A stretch of DNA of 13,249 bases, taken from positions 1 through 13,249 of the forward strand of contig JAAEQP010000622.1 of assembly GCA_024231375.1 (NCBI GenBank). The letters run 5' to 3'. A model generated the notes under the pieces. That model was not told the DNA's origin and searched no databases. It worked only from the letters and a program-made list of their open reading frames with translations. The translations under genes were made by a program, and so were the position numbers. This stretch comes from a bacterium (GTDB taxonomy: Bacteria > Hydrogenedentota > Hydrogenedentia > Hydrogenedentiales > SLHB01). Below are positions 3,714-13,249 of the stretch, in pieces (the first letter of the stretch is position 1; the number at the start of each line of letters is the position of its first letter).

Positions 3714-5357
3714 TTATTCGTAGATGTTGGCCATCTGCCAGGCGTCGAGGGATGTCAGCGTGGCGTCGCGGCCTTGGGAGCGAAGCGAGACGCCGATGCT
3801 GTCCTCACGATCAGGATAGACGCGCATGGCGACGCACTGCTTGCCGTTCACGAACACTTCTACGACGCTCTTGTCGACGAACACACGCAACCGCAGGGGT
3901 TCGTCGTTGGCGAGGGCGACGGGCGCGGTCTCCGGTGCGCGGGACTGGACGCTGGAGTGGCGTGACGAATAGGACGAGTCGAGGGTCACGATGCTCTCGC
4001 GCGGACTGGATTTGTCGTAGCGGTAGGTGTAGCCGCGGCCTTTGAAGAAGGCGATGCGAGTGTACTCCTCCTTGTCGGGCGACCGGAGCACATTGAGTTC
4101 CACCATGGGGGCGTGGCCCACGTCGATCTCGGCGATAAGCTCCATGGCGTCACCTTCTACATCCTTGAGCACGATTTCCTTGTTCGCGGGCAAGGTCATG
4201 TTGTCCACGCGCTGATGGTCGCGGCGCAGCGATTCCACCGCGGCGACGGGTTCGATGTTGAGCGCGTCGCGTCCGGCCAAGGTCAGACGGCGCGGCAGCG
4301 TCATGATTTGGTTCCAGCCTTTGGTTGGGCGCGCGGGGTTCATGTTAAACAGGACGATGACGCCGCCTTCGCCGTCGGGCGCAGCGGAAGGAGCATGCAC
4401 GCCGGCCGGATTGGACGCTCCATGGTTGAAGTTGCCGTGGGAGGTGACGACGAACTTGTCACGTTCCGTGTCGTAATCGCCAAGGAGGTATTGGCCGCCG
4501 CTCATGTGGCTGTAGAACAGCAGGATGTGTCGGTCGCCGATGGGCCAGAAGTAGGGGCATGCGCCGTCATCGCCGACCATGGTGAACCGGTCGCCTTCGA
4601 TGAAGGGATGCATGTACTCCCAGGTTGCCAGGTCGTCGGACCGGAACAGGAAGTTGGCGCGGATGTGCTTGCCGCCCGGACCATTCGGCAGGGTGCCGCC
4701 GGACAAGGAGTAGTAGACGCCGTCCTTCTTCCAGATGCACGGGTCGAACACGCGGTAGGGCCAGGGCGATCCGTCGGGTTGGGCGATGGGGATGACGGCG
4801 TTTCCGGTGACCTTCTCCCAGTTGAGAAGCAGCGCGTCGTCGGACACGGCCACCATGTTGCCCACCTCGGTTCCGTGATACATGGCGATGACGCGGTCTT
4901 CCTCGACCAGGGCCGCGCCCGAGTAGCAGCACCGCTCGGGGTTCGGGTAGATGGCGTAGGGCAGGTCGCGCCAGTGAACGAGGTCGTCGCTGACGGCGTG
5001 CCCCCAATGTTGGCGTCGGTCTTCGGGCGGATAGGCTTGGTAGAAGAGATGCCAACAGCCCTTCCAGAAGCACAGCCCGTTTGGGTCGTTTAACGTGCTT
5101 TCCGGGTTGATGTAGTGGTAGATGGGACGGAACCGGTCGCTGGCCATGCTGCGCCGCGACGCGATGAGGCGCTGCATGAGGGGGTTCTTGTCGAGGGCGG
5201 CTTCCTGGTCTACCAAGGCGTTGGGGTACTCGAACTTCGGCACTTTCGATGTGTAGTCCACCTTCTTCTCTCCCGCGAAGGCGTTGCCGCCGGTTGCTGA
5301 ACCCAACAGTGTCACGGCGATTGCCGCCGCCAAGCCGATTATGCACATTCTCAGCAT
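3714..5357 (-). CDS. Secreted GH32-type (levanase/invertase-like) protein with altered acid/base motif
   Basis: Encodes 547 residues from the ATG at 5357, which follows CAGGAGTAG on the reverse strand; the frame is open further upstream but without comparable signals. Residues 1-28 are a signal peptide (MCIIGLAAAIAVTLLGSATG), so the protein is exported. Residues 75-370 match the five-bladed beta-propeller of glycoside hydrolase family 32: INPESTLNDPNG (83-94, probable nucleophile Asp91), WHLFYQAYPP (102-111), HWGHAVSDDLVHW (117-129), FDPCIW (204-209; the family usually has RDP) and DDGACPYFWPIGD (263-275; the family usually has Glu where Ala266 stands). Residues 395-545 are the C-terminal beta sandwich, with the hallmark LRVFVDKSVVEVFVNGKQ followed by MRVYP. 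Known GH32 enzymes hydrolyse fructans or sucrose-type sugars; because the acid/base position is changed, activity and substrate are uncertain. Promoter at 5399-5427. Confidence 0.9.
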   Translation of the reverse strand: MLRMCIIGLAAAIAVTLLGSATGGNAFAGEKKVDYTSKVPKFEYPNALVDQEAALDKNPLMQRLIASRRSMASDRFRPIYHYINPESTLNDPNGLCFWKGCWHLFYQAYPPEDRRQHWGHAVSDDLVHWRDLPYAIYPNPERCCYSGAALVEEDRVIAMYHGTEVGNMVAVSDDALLLNWEKVTGNAVIPIAQPDGSPWPYRVFDPCIWKKDGVYYSLSGGTLPNGPGGKHIRANFLFRSDDLATWEYMHPFIEGDRFTMVGDDGACPYFWPIGDRHILLFYSHMSGGQYLLGDYDTERDKFVVTSHGNFNHGASNPAGVHAPSAAPDGEGGVIVLFNMNPARPTKGWNQIMTLPRRLTLAGRDALNIEPVAAVESLRRDHQRVDNMTLPANKEIVLKDVEGDAMELIAEIDVGHAPMVELNVLRSPDKEEYTRIAFFKGRGYTYRYDKSSPRESIVTLDSSYSSRHSSVQSRAPETAPVALANDEPLRLRVFVDKSVVEVFVNGKQCVAMRVYPDREDSIGVSLRSQGRDATLTSLDAWQMANIYE

Positions 5358-5602
5358 GAAACTACTCCTGTTTGGACCCGGGCATGTCCCATGGGCGAAT
5401 CTTAGGGAAGCCCGTGGTGCGATGCAAACGGGAGGGGACAATCGAGAGAAGGGGATATGGAGATTGATGGAGATGGGGAGATGGGGAAGAAGGAAGCGAG
5501 CAACCTCCAACCCCAAACGGCCAAGTCGGGAGCGGAGAACCTAACATGGATGCAGAGGAGGAAGAGGATTGTGAGTCAATCCGGTCAGACTTTGTGAATG
5601 CG
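5355..5602 (-). repeat. Duplicated promoter/upstream region, copy 1 (GH32-like gene)
   Basis: From the start codon of the GH32-like gene outwards, this stretch matches 6254-6546 in the same orientation. Shared blocks are ACTCCTG near the ribosome binding site, CGAATCTTAGG, GCCCGTGGTGCGATGCAAACG, GGAGATTGATGGAGATGGGG, AAGAAGGAAGCGAGC, GGCCAAGTCGGGAGCGGAG, AACCTAACATGGATGCAGAG and CAATCCGGTCA, ending at TGAATGCG. This copy has an extra AGATGGGG tandem unit and lacks the CGCAGAG insert of copy 2. No gene is seen here. Confidence 0.85.
5399..5427 (-). promoter_or_regulatory. Probable sigma-70-type promoter of the GH32-like gene
   Basis: On the reverse strand, TTGCAT (5427-5422) and TAAGAT (5404-5399) are separated by exactly 17 bases. 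The predicted start of transcription is near 5392, giving a leader of about 35 bases to the ATG at 5357. The same pair with the same spacing occurs at 6323-6295 before the upstream gene, which supports it. No operator palindrome is obvious. Confidence 0.6.
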
Positions 5603-6256: not shown

Positions 6257-6294
6257 GGAATCACTCCTGGTTGGATTCGGGCCACTGTGGACGA

Positions 6295-6323
6295 ATCTTA
6301 GGGGAGCCCGTGGTGCGATGCAA
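6295..6323 (-). promoter_or_regulatory. Probable sigma-70-type promoter of the small secreted protein gene
   Basis: TTGCAT (6323-6318) and TAAGAT (6300-6295) with a 17-base spacer on the reverse strand, identical in hexamers and spacing to the promoter at 5427-5399. The predicted start is near 6288, leaving a leader of about 32 bases to the ATG at 6256. Confidence 0.6.
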
Positions 6324-6340
6324 ACGGGAGGGAAGGATTG

Positions 6341-6377
6341 AAACGCAGAGTCGCTGAGAACGCAGAGGTTCGCAGAG
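6341..6377. repeat. Degenerate CGCAGAG tandem repeat
   Basis: Four imperfect units (AACGCAGAG, TCGCTGAG, AACGCAGAGG, TTCGCAGAG) lie side by side. They sit in an insertion that distinguishes this copy of the duplicated upstream region from the one at 5355-5602, so they arrived after, or were lost since, the duplication. No function is evident. Confidence 0.6.
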
Positions 6378-6614
6378 CAATCGGGAGAGGAGAATCAAGA
6401 GAAAGGGATGTGGAGATTGATGGAGATGGGGAAGAAGGAAGCGAGCGACCTCCAATCCCGACGGCCAAGTCGGGAGCGGAGAACCTAACATGGATGCAGA
6501 GGATAAAGAGGATTCATGGCCAATCCGGTCATTTTCCATGAATGCGGAGTGTTGGCGGCGAGGTTTCGGCCCTCGGGCTGACGATCGGGTGGAGGTGCAG
6601 GTTCCAGGCGGTCT

Positions 6615-6623
6615 TGCTACAAT
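6615..6623 (+). promoter_or_regulatory. Extended -10 promoter of the ceramidase-like gene
   Basis: TGC directly before TACAAT (6618-6623) makes an extended -10 element. No good -35 hexamer stands 16-18 bases upstream. Transcription would start near 6630 and give a short leader of about 25 bases with GGAGG before the ATG at 6655. Confidence 0.5.
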
Positions 6624-6654
6624 GTGGTCACGGGAAAACCCACGGAGGCAGCCA

Positions 6655-8103
6655 ATGAAACCGCTTCGACTGGATTTGGTATTGATGGGGTTAATGGTGT
6701 TGACGTGTCTTTCGCCGGCGTTGGGCCATGCGGAGGAGGAGGCGGTGCCGGTGTTTCGGGCGGGTGCGGCGACGAGTAACATCACGCCGCCGCTGGGGGT
6801 GTCGATTGTTGGCAATTGGCGATCGCCGAAGGCCAGCTACATCCATGACGAGTTGCACGCGCGCTGCATTGTCCTGGACGACGGCGAACGGCAGTTGGCG
6901 ATTGTCATCTGCGACAACCTGTCCATGGACCGGGAGGTCTACGACGCGGCGAAGGCGCGGCTTCACGAGAAGACCGGCATTCCGCTCGAACACATGCTGA
7001 TGGCGTCGACCCACACGCATTCGGGGCCGCCTGCGCGGGAAGGCAACTGCCTGGAACCCTACGAGGACCTGAGCGACTACCAACGGTTCGCGGTGGACCG
7101 GATTGTGGACGGCGTCCATTGCGCCATCAACAATCTGGAACCGGCGGAGATTGGGTGGGGCAGTGGCGAGGAGCCGAGCCAGGTACACAACCGGCGCTGG
7201 CACTTGAGCGATTACAGTCTCATGGTCAGCCCGTTCGGCGACCCCGACAAAGTGCGCATGAACCCTCCCAGGGGTCACAAGGCACTGGTGAAACCGGCTG
7301 GCCCGACGGACCCGGAGATCGCGTTCCTGGCGGTGCGGTCGGTGGATGGACGGCCCATCGCGCTGCTGGCCAACTACTCGCTCCACTACGTGGGCGGCGT
7401 ACCCAACGGCCACATCTCGGCGGACTATTTTGGCGCTTTTGCCGACCGCATCCAGGAGTTGATTGGCGCGGATCGGCTTGATCCGCCGTTCGTGGGCATC
7501 CTGTGCAACGGCACCAGCGGAGACATCAACAACATCAACTTCCGCGAGCCAAGTCCCAAGCGGGAGCCGTACGAGCAGATTCATCGCGTGGCCAATATGG
7601 TCGCGGCCGAAGTATACGGGGCGTACCAGACGACGGAGTATGAGGATCACGTCACGTTGGGTGGACGGATGAGCGAACTGACGCTCGGCGTGCGCAAGCC
7701 CGACGAGGCTACCGTGGCCTGGGCCCATGGGATTCTCAAGAAACCAGAGGGCGAGACAGAACTCAAGGAACGTATCTACGCGAACCGCACGCTGATGCAA
7801 GACAAGAGCCCGGACACTGTGGACGTCTGGTTGCAGACGCTACGCATCGGCGATGTGGGCGTTGCGGCTATCCCGTTCGAGGTCTTTGTGGAGACGGGCC
7901 TGCAACTGAAGGCGGACGGGCCGCTGCCGGTCACGTTCACCATCTCGCATGCGAACGGGGCCTACGGTTACCTGCCGACACCGGCGCAGCACGAGTTGGG
8001 CGGCTACGAGACGTGGTTGGGTACGAACCGGGTCTCGAAGGAGTCGGAACCGGCGATTGTAGCGACGCTCTTCGAGCAGTTTGGTGAACTTGCCGGGGAG
8101 TAG
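6655..8103 (+). CDS. Secreted neutral/alkaline ceramidase-like amidohydrolase
   Basis: Encodes 482 residues from the ATG at 6655, with GGAGG 7 bases upstream; the frame is open back to 6490 but that part lies in repeat DNA. Residues 1-26 are a signal peptide (LVLMGLMVLTCLSPALG). The rest fits the N-terminal catalytic domain of the neutral/alkaline non-lysosomal ceramidase family, zinc amidases that cleave the N-acyl bond of ceramides. Visible family marks are FRAGAATSNITPPLG (34-48), HARCIVLDDG (68-77), LMASTHTHSGP (115-125, zinc-ligand type His120/His122), ANYSLHYVGG (239-248, His244), CNGTSGDINNIN (284-295), IPFEVFVETG (406-415) and GYLPTPAQHELGGYE (438-452). The usual catalytic Ser of the GNLSPN-type motif is replaced by Asn292. 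The C-terminal immunoglobulin-like domain of longer ceramidases is absent. The substrate may therefore be another amide, so the call is to the fold rather than the activity. Confidence 0.88.
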   Translation: MKPLRLDLVLMGLMVLTCLSPALGHAEEEAVPVFRAGAATSNITPPLGVSIVGNWRSPKASYIHDELHARCIVLDDGERQLAIVICDNLSMDREVYDAAKARLHEKTGIPLEHMLMASTHTHSGPPAREGNCLEPYEDLSDYQRFAVDRIVDGVHCAINNLEPAEIGWGSGEEPSQVHNRRWHLSDYSLMVSPFGDPDKVRMNPPRGHKALVKPAGPTDPEIAFLAVRSVDGRPIALLANYSLHYVGGVPNGHISADYFGAFADRIQELIGADRLDPPFVGILCNGTSGDINNINFREPSPKREPYEQIHRVANMVAAEVYGAYQTTEYEDHVTLGGRMSELTLGVRKPDEATVAWAHGILKKPEGETELKERIYANRTLMQDKSPDTVDVWLQTLRIGDVGVAAIPFEVFVETGLQLKADGPLPVTFTISHANGAYGYLPTPAQHELGGYETWLGTNRVSKESEPAIVATLFEQFGELAGE

Positions 8104-8120
8104 GCGGTGGCGGCCGGGCC

Positions 8121-8260
8121 GCGAAACGGGGGACAGTCGAGTTGTTGATGAAGTGATGGTCTCCGGTGCGCAGCCCGCGATAACCTGGGGACAGCCACCC
8201 ATTGTTGCCCTAAGAAGGTCAATAATGGGACGTAAGAACTTGGCAGTCCCCGTTTGTCGC
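8121..8260. repeat. MITE-like inverted-repeat element with nested hairpin
   Basis: GCGAAACGGGGGACAGTC at 8121-8138 is mirrored by GGCAGTCCCCGTTTGTCGC at 8242-8260, an imperfect inverted repeat of about 18 bases. Inside, CCCATTGTTG (8198-8207) pairs with CAATAATGGG (8220-8229), 9 of 10, around a 12-base loop. GGGGACAGCCACCC (8187-8200) resembles the outer arm. GGGGACAG-type arms are typical of small elements mobilised in trans, such as REP elements associated with Y1 (RAYT) transposases; that link is recalled, not shown. No transposase gene is present. The spacer 8104-8323 holds nothing else. Confidence 0.55.
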
Positions 8261-8323
8261 TTCTGTTCAGGCGGGCGCGCAAAGGCGGGACGGGGTAAAG
8301 CTGGTGGAGGGCGCGGAGGGGCG

Positions 8324-8818
8324 CTAGCCCTCCGTGGCCTTCTGGTAGACCATGAGATAGACCTTGTAGTCAGGTGTTGTAAGCCAGAGGTGTCTGCCCG
8401 GCCGTGTGTCGCGGAGGCCGAACAGGAAGGTCTCGCCGGTTGCAAGGGTCACGCCGGCAAAGGCGCGTCCGCTGTAGCCGCGATGCGCGTCGATGGTGTA
8501 GTTTGGTCCGAAGTCGTAATTGCGTAGAGCTTCGACGCTTTGGCGCATCTCATCGGGCATCTCGTCGGCCAGGTCGGGCAGCTTCCCGTAGTGGAGTTCA
8601 TTCACCACAGTCTCGACGTATGTCCGGGCATAGCTCTGGAGGAGCAGGCGGTCGGCAAGCTGTACTGTGATCGATGCACACACCACGGCGAGAAGCGCTT
8701 GAAGGATGAACGCTTTCGGTCCTTGAACGCCGTTGCGCCATTTGCGGAAGCCGAGCGCCGCAGCCACGACGTTGAACGGGGCCAGTGATCCAAAGATGAT
8801 GAGAAACGCGAGATCCAT
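8324..8818 (-). CDS. Small membrane protein with C-terminal extracytoplasmic domain
   Basis: Encodes 164 residues from the ATG at 8818, preceded by CGGGAGGATTGGCC. The longer open frame up to 9016 runs through a hairpin repeat and was not used. Two hydrophobic segments are clear: residues 4-24 (AFLIIFGSLAPFNVVAAALGF) and 38-60 (ILQALLAVVCASITVQLADRLL), separated by a short positive loop (RKWRNGVQGPK) likely to be cytoplasmic. By the positive-inside rule the N-terminus and the rest of the chain face outward. Residues 65-164 are soluble: a helical part with LADEMPDEMRQSVEAL (83-98), then a beta-rich part (SGRAFAGVTLATGETFLFGL, HLWLTTPDYKVYLMVYQ). No family is recognised. It faces away from the alpha-2-macroglobulin gene and has its own promoter, so no operon link is visible. 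Confidence 0.72.
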   Translation of the reverse strand: MDLAFLIIFGSLAPFNVVAAALGFRKWRNGVQGPKAFILQALLAVVCASITVQLADRLLLQSYARTYVETVVNELHYGKLPDLADEMPDEMRQSVEALRNYDFGPNYTIDAHRGYSGRAFAGVTLATGETFLFGLRDTRPGRHLWLTTPDYKVYLMVYQKATEG

Positions 8819-8874
8819 GGCCAATCCTCCCGCCGCTGCGCGTGTGCCCCGGTCCGCGCGCGGGTCTACAGACC

Positions 8875-8883
8875 ACTGTACCA
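8875..8883 (-). promoter_or_regulatory. Extended -10 promoter of the small membrane protein gene
   Basis: On the reverse strand TGG precedes TACAGT (8880-8875), an extended -10 pattern like the one before the ceramidase-like gene. No -35 hexamer is seen at the right distance. The leader to the ATG at 8818 would be about 50 bases. Confidence 0.4.
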
Positions 8884-8936
8884 CAAGATGGGTTGGTCGC
8901 GAGTTTCCAGACTCGACACAATGCCGGGACCCGCAA

Positions 8937-8972
8937 GACCCCTCACCCCACCCCTCTCCCGATGGGAGAGGG
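8937..8972. repeat. REP-like perfect hairpin
   Basis: CCCTCTCCC (8952-8960) and GGGAGAGGG (8964-8972) form a perfect 9-base stem around a GAT loop. The preceding ACCCCTCACCCCACC closely matches the left arm of the element at 3627-3678. There is no T-tract and it lies between two divergent genes, so it is not a terminator for either; a dispersed repeat is the better reading. Confidence 0.65.
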
Positions 8973-9108
8973 CGCGAGAAACGGGGGAAGCGGGATTCGT
9001 CCCGAATATGGGGCATCTTCGGCCCAACGCGAGCCGGAATCTCCTGCCACTCTTGCGGCCGCGGACATGCCTGAATGAAGATCGGGCATTCCTGTGCGCG
9101 ACACCCTC

Positions 9109-9137
9109 TTGACGCCGGAACTGTTTGGGCCTAGGGT
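9109..9137 (+). promoter_or_regulatory. Probable promoter of the alpha-2-macroglobulin gene
   Basis: TTGACG (9109-9114) and TAGGGT (9132-9137) are 17 bases apart. The -35 hexamer is one base from consensus; the -10 is weak. Transcription would start near 9144 and leave an unusually long leader of about 140 bases to the ATG at 9285. No riboswitch or attenuator could be recognised in that leader. Confidence 0.45.
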
Positions 9138-9284
9138 GGATAGAAGAGTGGCGTGAAGGGGTATCGAACCCTGACGCGGGAATGGTGTCCTAAGGAGCGA
9201 GGCTGAGGTGCGAGCCGGCGATTGCGGTGCCCTCGCCTCCGTTGATTCGAGCGACGAAACACGGATCCAGGAGGATGCTTTGCT

Positions 9285-12200
9285 ATGCGAAACCTGTTTG
9301 TCTGCCTGACTTTGCTTGCCGCGGTGTTGGCGTTGACCGTCGGCACGCAGGACGTGGAGTCCGCGGCGGTGCGGGAATGGGTCGGCCGGAAGGCCATCGA
9401 AGTGGAACACACCCACGCCGGGCTGGTGGCCCGGTTCCCCATCTTGAACCCCACGGGGCAACGCGTCGACGCCAAAATGACGGTGCGGATCGTCGATCTG
9501 AATGGCAAGGAGCAGGCGGCCGCGACGGTCGACCTGAAGCTGCAACCCAACAAACGCAAATACGAGGTGAACCTGGTCGGCGACATCCCTTCGGACCAGA
9601 TGCCGTTGTACGTGATCCAATACACGTTGCAGACGCCGTCGGGCATGGAACGCGGCGCGCGGAGTCTGATGGCGGTTCTGGCGCAGTTGGAGACGCGGGT
9701 CGTGGCCTACCGCGACCTGTTGGCCGGTAGCGACGCGTCGGTGCGCGTGGTGGCGCTGAATCATGCCACGGGGAAGCCCGTGAAAGGCGCTACGGTCGCA
9801 ATCGCGCTCGTCCAGGGCGAAGAGGTGACGTCGCTCTACAAGGGACGTACCAACGGCAAGGGCACGTTGGATGCCGCGTTCGCGGTGCCCGACATGGACG
9901 AGGCCAAGGCCCAGCTTCGGGTGAAGGTGTCGCATGCCCGGCTCGGAAAGGACGAGGCGACCGTGCCGGTGACCGTCCAACGACGCGCCAAACTGCTCCT
10001 GAACACGGATAAGCCCATGTACCAGCCCGGCCAGCAGATTCAGATGCGGGCGCTGTGCCTGGGCGTTGGCAGTCTCAAGCCGGAGGCGGGCAAAGACCTG
10101 ATCTTCGAGGTGATGGATTCCAAGGGCAACAAGGTATTCAAGCACCCCACCCAGACCAGCGAATACGGCGTGGCTTCGGCGAAATTCCAACTGGCGAGCG
10201 AAGTGAACCAGGGCGCGTATACCGTGCGTGCCATTCTCGGCAAGACCCAGAGCGAGAAGCAGGTGACCGTCGAGCGGTACGTGTTGCCCAAGTTCAAGGT
10301 ACACGTGGCGACGGAACGCGACTACTACCTGCCTGGCGAGACGTTGAAGGGCACGATTCAGTCCGATTACTTCTTCGGCAAACCCGTGGCGGGCGGGACC
10401 GTGGAGATTGTGGCGTCGAAATTCGAGATCGAGTTCCAGGAATTCGCCCGAATTGAAGGCAAACTCGACGCGGAAGGGCATTGGGAGTTCGAGATTCCCT
10501 TGCCCGACTTCTTCGCCGGCACACCGCTCGAACAGGGCGAAGCGTCGGTGCGGTTGGAGGCGTTCGTGACCGATACGGCCGACCACCGGGAAGAGAAAGT
10601 GACCATGACGCCCGTGGCGGCCGCGCAATTGAACATCTTCGCCGTGCCCGAGAGCGGAGGTTTGGTGCCGCGTCTGGACAACCGGGTCTACGTGCTGGTG
10701 TCGTACCCGGACGGCACGCCGGCGAAGGGCGCGCGCCTGGCCGTCACCGGCCGGGGCGTCGATGCCGCATCGGCGGAACTGATAACGGATGAACTGGGCA
10801 TTGCCACGGTTACCGTGAAGGCCCCGGCTGCCGCACCCACGAAGCTGCGCGTGCGCGCCAGCGACAAGCAGGGGCATACGACGTCGAAGGAATTCGATCT
10901 CGCGAACAGGGGGGGCGATGACGCCCTCATCCTGCGCACGGAGCAGGTGCTGTATTCGGCGGGCGATACGCTCCGGGCCGATGCCTATACCACCAAGCCT
11001 GCGGGCACGGTGTATTTCGACTTGGTTCGGAACGGGCAGACGGTGATGACGCGCGCGGCGGACCTTGTCGCAGGCCGCGCCTCGTTGGTGATGGACCTGG
11101 ATGAAGGAACTTCGGGGAGCGTGGTGTTGCAGGCGTACGTGTTCACCGGCGCCGCGGACATCCTCCGCGACGCGCGGTTGCTGTACGTCAACCCCGCCGA
11201 TTCGCTTCAACTCGACATATCCCTCGACAAAGACACGTACCAACCAGGGCAACACGCGCAGATTCGGTTCGTGACGCGGAACAAGGCGGGCGCGGGCACG
11301 CCGTCGGCCATTGGTGTGACCATTATCGACGAGAGCGTGTACGCGTTGCAGGAGATCCATCCCGGTCTCGAGAAGGTGTACTTCACCCTCGAGAAGGAGA
11401 TCATGCAGCCTCGTTACGAAATCCATGGGTACAAGCTGGACGACATCGTCAGCGGTCAACCCGGGCTTCCCGTGAGGCCCGGCGGCATGGCCAAGGGGCA
11501 GTGGACCGATACGCAACAGGAAGCCGCGCGGGTGTTGCTGGCATCGGCTCCGGCCGTGCCCGAACCGCCGGTCCGGCTCAACACCTTCATCCAACGGCAG
11601 CGCCAGGCCGACACGGCTGTCCGGGAACGGTTCGAGAAGGACTACCAGCATATCCAGCGGGCCGTGCAGAAGTACTTCAGGGCCCGCGACGGCAAGCTGC
11701 CGCGCGATCTGCTTTCGGCGTTGCTGCGCGGCAAGCATCTTCGCCCCAATGAATTGCTGGACCCGTGGGGCAACATGTACGAGTTCGACTTCTCCCAAGC
11801 GGCGGACTCGGGCGGCTTCTTCACCATGCGGTCGAACGGCCCGGACGAAGTGAAAGACACACCCGACGACCTGACGACCGACCATATGTTCAAGCAGATG
11901 CGCCGGGGCCGTATGCGCCTTGGCGCCGAAATGATGGTAGCGGACGCCATGCCCATGCCCGCGCCGATGGCGGCCAAGCGCGCCGAGATGGAAATGGCGG
12001 ACGGTGACATGGCCTTCGGCGGCATCGCAGGCGTCCCTGCAGATGAGGCCGCTGGCGGCCCGCAGCCACCGCGCCTGCGCGAATACTTCCCCGAGACGCT
12101 GCTGTTCGAACCATCGCTTATTACGGACGCCACGGGCACGGCGGTCCTTGACCTGACGTTGGCGGACAGCATCACCACGTGGCGCATGTCGGCCATGGCG

Positions 12201-13249
12201 TCGTCGGCCTTGGGCGCGTTGGGCAGCAAGGAAACACCGTTGCGCGTGTTTCAGGACTTCTTCGTGGACCTGGACCTGCCGGTGGCGTTGACGCAGAACG
12301 ACCGCGTGTCCATCCCCGTGGTGATGTACAACTACCTGACCGAAGCGCAGGACGTGCGGCTGAAGTTCGACGAGGAACCGTGGTTCACACTCGACGGTGA
12401 AGCTGAGCAGACGATTCGGTTGGCCCCGGAAGAAGTGAAGGCCATGTACTTCCCCATCGAGGTGAAGGAACTGGGCCGGCACCGGCTCACGGTGTGGGCC
12501 TACGGTTCGGAGATGAGCGACGCCATCCGCCGCGAAGTGGATGTGACGCCGGATGGCCAGGAACAGAACATCACGTTCAGCGACCGGCTCAGCGGCAAGA
12601 CCGAACACACGGTCCTGATTCCGCCGAACGCGGTCGAGGGCGCCAGCAAGGTGCTGGTGCGGGTGTATCCCGGCATGTACAGCCAGATCGTGGACGGGCT
12701 CGACAGCATGTTGCAGATGCCGTGCGGATGTTTCGAACAGACCACGGCATCGACCTATCCGAACGTGCTCATCGTGCAGTACATGAAAGCCACGGAACAG
12801 TTGAATCCCGAGACCCAAATGAAGGCGGAGGGTTTCATCAACAACGGGTACCAACGCCTGCTGGCGTACGAAGTGCAGGGAGGCGGGTTCTCGTGGTTTG
12901 GCGAGGCCCCGGCCAACAAGGCGCTGACCGCCTTGGGCGTGAAGCAGTTCTACGACATGGCCGAGGTACACGAAGTCGACCCGGCCGTCATCGACCGCAC
13001 GCGGGCGTGGCTCCTGTCACGGCAGGAGGCCGACGGGTCGTGGAAGCCCGACGAACAGTATCTACACGCCGACACCTGGAGCGGCATCCAGAGCAGCGGC
13101 GTGCTGGTGACGGCCTACATCCTTGAGGCCATCCTGAGTACGGGCGACACCGGTCCCGGCACTCAGAAAGCCATCGACTACCTGCGCGCCAATTGGCAGG
13201 ATGCCAAGGACGCGTATACGTTGGCGTTGCTTTCCAACGCGCTGGTGGC
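9285..13249 (+). CDS. Giant alpha-2-macroglobulin with GspG-like insert, C-terminus beyond right edge
   Basis: The ATG at 9285 follows AGGAGG (9269-9274); 1321 residues are open to the edge. Residues 4-20 are a hydrophobic export signal without a lipobox. Macroglobulin-type beta domains follow, with LLLNTDKPMYQPGQ (237-250), another DKDTYQPGQ repeat near 648, and GVTIIDESVYAL (677-688), the bait-region-domain signature. Residues 784-866 look like a GspG pseudopilin C-terminal domain (DPWGN 826-830, then SNGPDEVKDTPDDL). A Met/Pro/Ala-rich stretch (about 880-930) is the probable bait. YFPETLLFEPSL (934-945) and SITTWRMSAMASS mark the next macroglobulin domain. MPCGCFEQT carries the thioester pair Cys1149 and Gln1152, inside the helical thioester domain (GGGFSWFG, LSRQEADGSW) that is cut by the edge. 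Such proteins trap proteases: bait cleavage exposes the thioester, which bonds to the attacker. Bacterial relatives act in the periplasm or at the envelope. No penicillin-binding protein 1C gene is visible nearby. Confidence 0.93.
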   Translation, partial: MRNLFVCLTLLAAVLALTVGTQDVESAAVREWVGRKAIEVEHTHAGLVARFPILNPTGQRVDAKMTVRIVDLNGKEQAAATVDLKLQPNKRKYEVNLVGDIPSDQMPLYVIQYTLQTPSGMERGARSLMAVLAQLETRVVAYRDLLAGSDASVRVVALNHATGKPVKGATVAIALVQGEEVTSLYKGRTNGKGTLDAAFAVPDMDEAKAQLRVKVSHARLGKDEATVPVTVQRRAKLLLNTDKPMYQPGQQIQMRALCLGVGSLKPEAGKDLIFEVMDSKGNKVFKHPTQTSEYGVASAKFQLASEVNQGAYTVRAILGKTQSEKQVTVERYVLPKFKVHVATERDYYLPGETLKGTIQSDYFFGKPVAGGTVEIVASKFEIEFQEFARIEGKLDAEGHWEFEIPLPDFFAGTPLEQGEASVRLEAFVTDTADHREEKVTMTPVAAAQLNIFAVPESGGLVPRLDNRVYVLVSYPDGTPAKGARLAVTGRGVDAASAELITDELGIATVTVKAPAAAPTKLRVRASDKQGHTTSKEFDLANRGGDDALILRTEQVLYSAGDTLRADAYTTKPAGTVYFDLVRNGQTVMTRAADLVAGRASLVMDLDEGTSGSVVLQAYVFTGAADILRDARLLYVNPADSLQLDISLDKDTYQPGQHAQIRFVTRNKAGAGTPSAIGVTIIDESVYALQEIHPGLEKVYFTLEKEIMQPRYEIHGYKLDDIVSGQPGLPVRPGGMAKGQWTDTQQEAARVLLASAPAVPEPPVRLNTFIQRQRQADTAVRERFEKDYQHIQRAVQKYFRARDGKLPRDLLSALLRGKHLRPNELLDPWGNMYEFDFSQAADSGGFFTMRSNGPDEVKDTPDDLTTDHMFKQMRRGRMRLGAEMMVADAMPMPAPMAAKRAEMEMADGDMAFGGIAGVPADEAAGGPQPPRLREYFPETLLFEPSLITDATGTAVLDLTLADSITTWRMSAMASSALGALGSKETPLRVFQDFFVDLDLPVALTQNDRVSIPVVMYNYLTEAQDVRLKFDEEPWFTLDGEAEQTIRLAPEEVKAMYFPIEVKELGRHRLTVWAYGSEMSDAIRREVDVTPDGQEQNITFSDRLSGKTEHTVLIPPNAVEGASKVLVRVYPGMYSQIVDGLDSMLQMPCGCFEQTTASTYPNVLIVQYMKATEQLNPETQMKAEGFINNGYQRLLAYEVQGGGFSWFGEAPANKALTALGVKQFYDMAEVHEVDPAVIDRTRAWLLSRQEADGSWKPDEQYLHADTWSGIQSSGVLVTAYILEAILSTGDTGPGTQKAIDYLRANWQDAKDAYTLALLSNALV

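Follow-up and report, generated by a model that had tools for sequence, protein, structure and literature searches.

The 13,249-nucleotide stretch of DNA analysed here, hereafter the window (contig JAAEQP010000622.1 of assembly GCA_024231375.1, from a Hydrogenedentota bacterium), ends in a gene for an alpha-2-macroglobulin (A2M) that carries, within its bait region, a domain related to the head of the type II secretion pseudopilin GspG. The identity and the place of this domain are near certain. Judged from its sequence, the insert is homologous to the GspG head and is not itself a pseudopilin. It opens with the helix EKDYQHIQRAVQKYF and contains the motif DPWGN-x-Y at residues 826-832. An earlier note on this DNA had recognised GspG-like motifs in their usual order and spacing, and this observation held: the ordered pattern DPWG-x(10,45)-G-x-D-x6-DD did not occur when the window protein was shuffled 20,000 times. 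The Pfam family T2SSG (PF08334) matched the window protein with an E-value of 0.15 over its whole length, 0.005 for a 158-aa piece and 0.0013 for its 105-aa domain; the last score (19.2 bits, below the cut-off of 21) is by itself suggestive. The T2SSG identity proposed in the earlier note was settled by relatives of the window protein. PF08334 was matched by all 14 rows tested (the window domain and 13 inserts hand-picked from 120 for the Pfam and PDB profile work) at E ≤ 1, with a best value of 4.5e-13, and was the sole family common to all of them. When the insert profile was compared with the PDB, T2SSG/GspG was the sole significant match and no anaphylatoxin chain appeared at E < 10. NCBIfam returned no family for the insert piece.

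Structure prediction indicated that the insert adopts a GspG-like fold rather than a macroglobulin beta sandwich, again in line with the earlier note. For a 500-residue model, the 50 Foldseek matches listed were chains of A2M and complement, uninformative for the insert, and a model of the insert alone was therefore used; this model matched GspG, with weak E-values (0.06 at best). Type IV pilins ranked below pseudopilins in the structure lists and were not read as a separate relationship. As also claimed previously, the prepilin signal pattern (GFTLIE type) was absent from the insert and no N-terminal membrane helix precedes the head, as judged by eye. Across the 185 proteins of the insert group, the pattern was found in a single one (P0044, near residue 128, far from the insert). 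The location beside the bait proposed in the earlier note stood and can now be given more exactly, inside the MG6 insertion; the proposed start at residue 784 did not, because the long predicted helix 768-800 is part of the domain, which begins about 18 residues earlier (~766, base ~11580). Variations on the insert were seen among relatives. In several inserts (P0118, P0071, P0091 and others), DPWG and the calcium loop are separated by a stretch with a C-x-x-C pair (e.g. WCNSCKTYH), a hint of a metal site or a disulphide. In P0081, an A2M of 1986 aa, the GspG head is present at the insert site as four copies in tandem (DPWG ... GPD/GID ... DD; residues ~884-1186).

The insert likely binds calcium. 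Its loop NGPDEVKDTPDD aligns without gaps to that of 3G20, with D854, T859 and D862 at ligand positions of the latter; by homology, D854 and D862 are predicted to bind through their side chains and T859 through its side or main chain. According to PMC3396595, calcium within PGPDGVPNTEDD of 3G20 is bound by the main chain of P114 and V119 together with D117, T122 and D125; for T122 the results describe a side-chain contact, and the discussion puts position 8 among the main-chain contacts. Identity and residue counts were made on 164 of the 185 insert-group proteins, the window included (proteins of ≤1270 aa and P0081 were left out). D854 was found in 163 of them (the exception, P0148, has N), T859 was T or S in 163, and both D861 and D862 were present in 164; the acidic residues highlighted in the earlier note are therefore kept in relatives. 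The insert profile also picked up 24 pseudopilin-like open reading frames (ORFs) in the phylum; of these, 23 have D854, 24 have D862 and 15 have D861, so that D861 is stricter in inserts than in these ORFs. The PERCAL-type consensus G-x-D-G-x-x-[GN]-[TN]-x-D-D was matched exactly by 62 of the 164 inserts. PERCAL inserts of bacterial animal-type peroxidases share this consensus, and a peptide bearing the motif binds calcium (PMC3396595), yet they are short loops whereas the insert is a whole pseudopilin head. PulG crystallised in the absence of calcium was misfolded near the site, as reported in PMC6692295.

In A2Ms, LNK and the bait together make up a single insertion of MG6, and the strand after the bait plugs a channel from which it retracts upon cleavage (PMC9156758 and PMC9352918). 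The insert group shows the order bait-domain segment, GspG head, variable stretch, plug. Upstream, linker 1 is 14-54 aa long with a mean identity of 34%, and the segment QQEAARVLLASAP is a weakly predicted helix (predicted local distance difference test, pLDDT, about 50-66) aligning with AGLQVLAS of an insert-less sister group described below. Downstream, linker 2 (columns 869-934) spans 52-117 aa with 28% mean identity and is rich in A (17.5%), G (13.5%), R (9.4%), M (7.5%) and P (7.4%). Predicted confidence was low on both sides of the insert, in parts of 686-766 and over 877-936 (pLDDT <50), and the insert itself is low in sequence identity except for its folding core. R932, F935 and P936 of the plug were found in 164/164 aligned proteins and the plug pattern in 185/185. 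The coordinates are collected in Table 1.

Table 1. Features of the window's A2M gene, with residue numbers of the protein and nucleotide positions in the window
Feature	Residues	Window positions	Strand	Remarks
A2M-family gene		9285..13249	+	Pfam MG2, MG3, MG4, A2M_BRD, A2M and TED above cut-offs
YVLPKF	332-337	10278..10295	+	counterpart of the MG2-MG3 linker motif lining the plug channel
DESV..EIHGY, where the first MG6 half ends and the bait-region domain starts		11328..11432	+	80% mean identity over 682-715
Linker 1	716-742	11430..11510	+	variable; pLDDT <50 over most
QQEAARVLLASAP, conserved bait-domain segment directly before insert	744-756	11514..11552	+	61% mean identity
GspG-type pseudopilin head domain	766-868	11580..11888	+
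DPWGN motif	826-830	11760..11774	+	D826 in 164/164, W828 in 162/164
Calcium loop NGPDEVKDTPDD	851-862	11835..11870	+	ligands by homology with 3G20
Linker 2	869-929	11889..12071	+	hypervariable, Ala/Gly/Met/Pro/Arg-rich; likely bait proper
Plug R932-E-Y-F935-P936	932-936	12078..12092	+	counterpart of Arg730..Pro734 of A2ML1
GCFEQ thioester motif	1148-1152	12726..12740	+	motif in 181/185 insert-group proteins

By its domains and thioester motif, the window protein is a member of the A2M superfamily of the thioester (Type I) kind. Its gene is the last in the window and runs past the window end, leaving 1321 codons visible. The N-terminus resembles a Sec signal without a lipobox, as judged by eye, and the protein probably belongs to the secreted, thioester-bearing A2Ms of metazoan-like type. 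Its probable use in bacteria is the trapping of foreign proteases. The YVLPKF pattern was present in 160/185 insert-group proteins, window counted; its assignment as a counterpart follows the description in PMC9156758 and is not structure-based. The MG8/receptor-binding domain (PF07677) was annotated on most of the longer relatives listed, and the window ends upstream of its position. Among the relatives listed, the nearest with names were Candidatus Hydrogenedentes, and a Hydrogenedentota contig (L001) encodes a relative with 62% identity in the best segment. When the full A2M profile was compared with the PDB, the best 60 of 108 chains were all of the metazoan kind (A2M, A2ML1, CD109, insect TEP1, complement), not ECAM. 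E. coli ECAM and Salmonella SaA2M share the A2M fold, thioester and bait with the window family (PMC5764988 in part).

The insert marks a subfamily of A2Ms. A search with residues 690-940 returned 538 proteins, and the insert was found in all 120 listed, window counted. Since this query contained the insert, an insert-free one (residues 936-1200) was used as well; it returned 4274 proteins, and in the best 120 the survey of homologues suggested by the earlier note found the insert in 113/113 assessable proteins, window counted. Fifty-five of these 120 were already in the first list, all of them carriers; 58 of the 65 new ones were carriers too, and the remaining 7 (726-751 aa) start inside the stretch downstream of the insert site. 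Source names among the proteins listed included Armatimonadetes, Planctomycetota (Phycisphaerae, Sedimentisphaerales), Hydrogenedentes, Abyssubacteria, KSB3 and Vecturithrix. Of 60 genomes from the phylum that includes the L001 genome, 10 have the insert inside a long open frame (1077-1690 aa); other hits of the insert profile, in these 10 and 45 more genomes, were in frames of 94-211 aa, except three of 359-575 aa. A strong PF00207 match (75-96 bits) was found in 12 of the 60, namely the 10 carriers, G040, whose A2M is apparently cut at REYFPET by the contig end, and G047, whose A2M has no insert. The 60 genomes also hold 48 weaker PF00207 matches (29-59 bits), which we assume to be of the ECAM/SaA2M kind, and these never coincided with an insert hit. 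Similarly, the insert profile had no match in ORFs of at least 400 aa from seven loci with other A2Ms (Pseudomonas, Robertkochia, Anaerolineae, cyanobacteria) or from L053. Two carriers, P0045 and P0128, are A2Ms named 'type II secretion system protein GspG' by their sources, evidently because of the insert.

Searching with the insert-less A2M of G047 revealed a sister group (P0186-P0305) in which the insert was found in 0/120 listed relatives; 116 hold the site and 4 are too short. These are metazoan-like A2Ms, and the names listed include Planctomycetota and archaea (ANME-2, Methanosarcinales). For the cross-group alignment and the backbone tree, 34 of the 164 carriers and 27 of the 108 sister proteins longer than 1290 aa were used; the window was also aligned with 41 and with 35 of the 119 listed relatives. 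AGLQVLAS of the insert-less proteins fell under AARVLLAS of the carriers, and both groups end in R-x-x-F-P-E-T. After that shared segment the insert-less proteins continue into a short variable stretch, whereas in carriers the GspG head comes first and is followed by a variable stretch of greater length. The median DESV-FPET distance was 254 residues in carriers versus 107 in insert-less proteins (readable, with outliers, in 175/185 and 116/120; 173/185 and 116/120 in a second reading). In the unrooted backbone tree, built without the insert-site columns, the two groups lay on opposite sides of one branch (Shimodaira-Hasegawa-like approximate likelihood ratio test, SH-aLRT, 100). An unrooted insert tree, for which every third insert was taken (40/120), separated these 40 inserts from 24 pseudopilins by one branch (100/100); the pseudopilins came from one phylum only. 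Insert and backbone distances were correlated (Mantel r 0.82, with 0/999 permutations as high). Because the other A2Ms checked lack the insert, a single gain explains its origin most simply. Collectively, the earlier interpretation is supported: the contrary results that it had named were looked for and none was found.

Calculation supports the identity and place of the domain, the fold predicted for it, the residues of its calcium loop and the fact that a large subfamily has kept it; what the domain does is a matter of reasoned guess. Weighing the possible roles put forward in the earlier note (calcium dependence, decoy, spacer), we favour a calcium-stabilised folded module over either a spacer or a decoy, and our leading proposal, to which we give a little less than an even chance, is that the GspG head acts as a calcium-binding knot on the N-terminal side of a bait formed by linker 2. 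In native A2Ms the strand following the bait threads and plugs the channel, and its retraction after a cut springs the trap (PMC9156758). In the insert group, the head would bind calcium and fold as a knot in the bait strand, N-terminal to linker 2; because the order of segment, head, variable stretch and plug matches that of C3, linker 2 (869-929) may be the bait proper and the head a calcium-locked stopper. A cut in linker 2 would leave the knot on the MG6 side and free the plug, as in C3 cleavage, whereas after a cut in linker 1 the plug would still be joined to a folded domain of ~100 residues, whose passage through the channel is not expected. Triggering would thus depend on the position of the cut, and loss of calcium would loosen the knot. 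Human A2M with a bait lengthened by 10-20 residues tends to the collapsed form, although the trap is not sprung when the bait is lengthened in the folded protein (PMC9352918). An addition of 100 residues therefore has a better chance of being tolerated if it is a compact domain, and with such a domain the native form would still be within reach of a bait region of ~200 residues.

The same observation on lengthened human A2M bears on the explanation with the next best prospects, an inert structural spacer. Here a pseudopilin head would have landed by chance in a tolerant loop, would be hard to remove, and would merely lengthen and expose the bait. Vertical descent of the insert, its low identity outside the folding core and the low-confidence stretches on either side fit such a history; but a neutral insertion of 100 residues is unlikely to have been harmless at the start, given that A2M with a longer bait tends to collapse, and zero losses were seen among 113 assessable near relatives. 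We give the spacer a modest chance.

Descent from GspG could instead mean that the domain is a specificity element or decoy, recognised by a protease or partner that meets real pseudopilins (a type II-exported protease, or the pseudopilus surface), so that the target is brought to the bait. All 10 carrier genomes of the 60 also have separate short pseudopilin-like frames, but such frames occurred in 45 of the 50 other genomes too, which argues against a special link. The insert lacks the prepilin signature, which was also absent from ORFs of at least 110 aa picked around the A2M in 8 loci, which were not scanned for further genes of type II secretion. We consider a decoy quite unlikely. Less likely still is a released signal or adhesion fragment, in which flanking cuts would free a calcium-bound domain of ~12 kDa to act elsewhere in the manner of an anaphylatoxin. 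The variable, low-confidence linkers, the tandem copies of P0081 and a topological place equal to that of the anaphylatoxin domain (PMC9156758) are compatible with it, but no conserved surface is evident beyond the folding core and no receptor candidate was seen, none having been searched for. That a macroglobulin or coiled stretch resembles GspG by mere chance is scarcely credible and was rejected together with a plain macroglobulin sandwich: despite the sub-threshold Pfam score of the window (19.2 against 21 bits) and the weak Foldseek E-values (0.06 at best), the PDB profile search, the Pfam matches of relatives and the GspG-like predicted fold with its Foldseek matches together oppose it.

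Compared with GspG/PulG/EpsG (PF08334; PDB 3G20, 1T92, 5O2Y, 3GN9, 3FU1), the insert shares the predicted head fold, DPWG, the G-x-D-x6-D-D loop and the 3G20 ligand positions, but it lacks the prepilin signal and preceding membrane helix, and is embedded in an A2M of ~1600 residues in relatives. With human A2M, A2ML1 and CD109, the best PDB matches, the window family has MG2-MG7, TED, the thioester and the plug R-x-x-F-P in common; unlike it, they have a short bait (39 residues in human A2M) that holds no folded domain. The anaphylatoxin fold is held by disulphides. Complement proteins have an anaphylatoxin domain instead of a bait (PMC9156758), and C3, C4 and C5 share their layout with the window family: inside MG6 a folded domain stands in for the bait, on the N-terminal side of the plug strand. 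The domain of complement is an anaphylatoxin with furin processing (PMC9156758), whereas that of the window family is a pilin head with a calcium loop. The window A2M is complement-like in layout, not in the fold inserted. Open-licence literature contained no paper pairing macroglobulin with pseudopilin, T2SSG or Hydrogenedentes, which does not prove absence elsewhere; open-licence papers naming macroglobulin and GspG look unrelated by title and the start of the abstract, and the main text of an A2M review (PMC12939704) has no word starting with 'pilin' and no 'secretion system'.

Eight neighbouring genes in the window were scanned; three had a Pfam match, and no type II secretion family was among these three. 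An all-against-all ORF comparison of the 8 loci and the window gave a single shared neighbour (L070/L072) besides A2M-gene pieces and antisense frames, which indicated that there is no conserved partner gene. Antisense to the A2M gene lies an open frame of 1342 aa (window 8943-12971, minus strand), with similar ones in relatives; such frames are expected since the coding DNA is high in GC. On L072, the A2M of G029 is split over two overlapping plus-strand frames (7335-11432 and 11108-12286), and the second matches part of the A2M of other relatives, consistent with a frameshift, either in the gene itself or introduced by the assembly. Elsewhere in the window, two adjacent plus-strand ORFs (623-1138 and 1145-2029) differ in their bodies but have near-identical leaders (ESRTIV..PRGCA.IRNW.GSCLVLAA...C) in which a Cys resembles that of a lipobox. 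On the minus strand, two ORFs that are otherwise unlike each other both contain the reading GLEVARFLLPHL, near 5500 (ORF 3714-5516) and within 6261-6815; this points to an intergenic sequence that is repeated.

A folded, probably calcium-sensitive domain within the bait, retained across several phyla, offers a natural experiment on how bait cleavage springs the A2M trap. It parallels the layout of complement C3-C5 with an unrelated fold, explains why some sources label A2Ms as a type II secretion protein, and gives the pseudopilin head a place outside secretion. It is conceivable, though we think it improbable, that bacteria independently reached the complement layout, with a calcium-dependent bait domain serving as a one-way gate and, in some lineages, being freed as an active counterpart of anaphylatoxin; if so, extracellular calcium would arm the trap.
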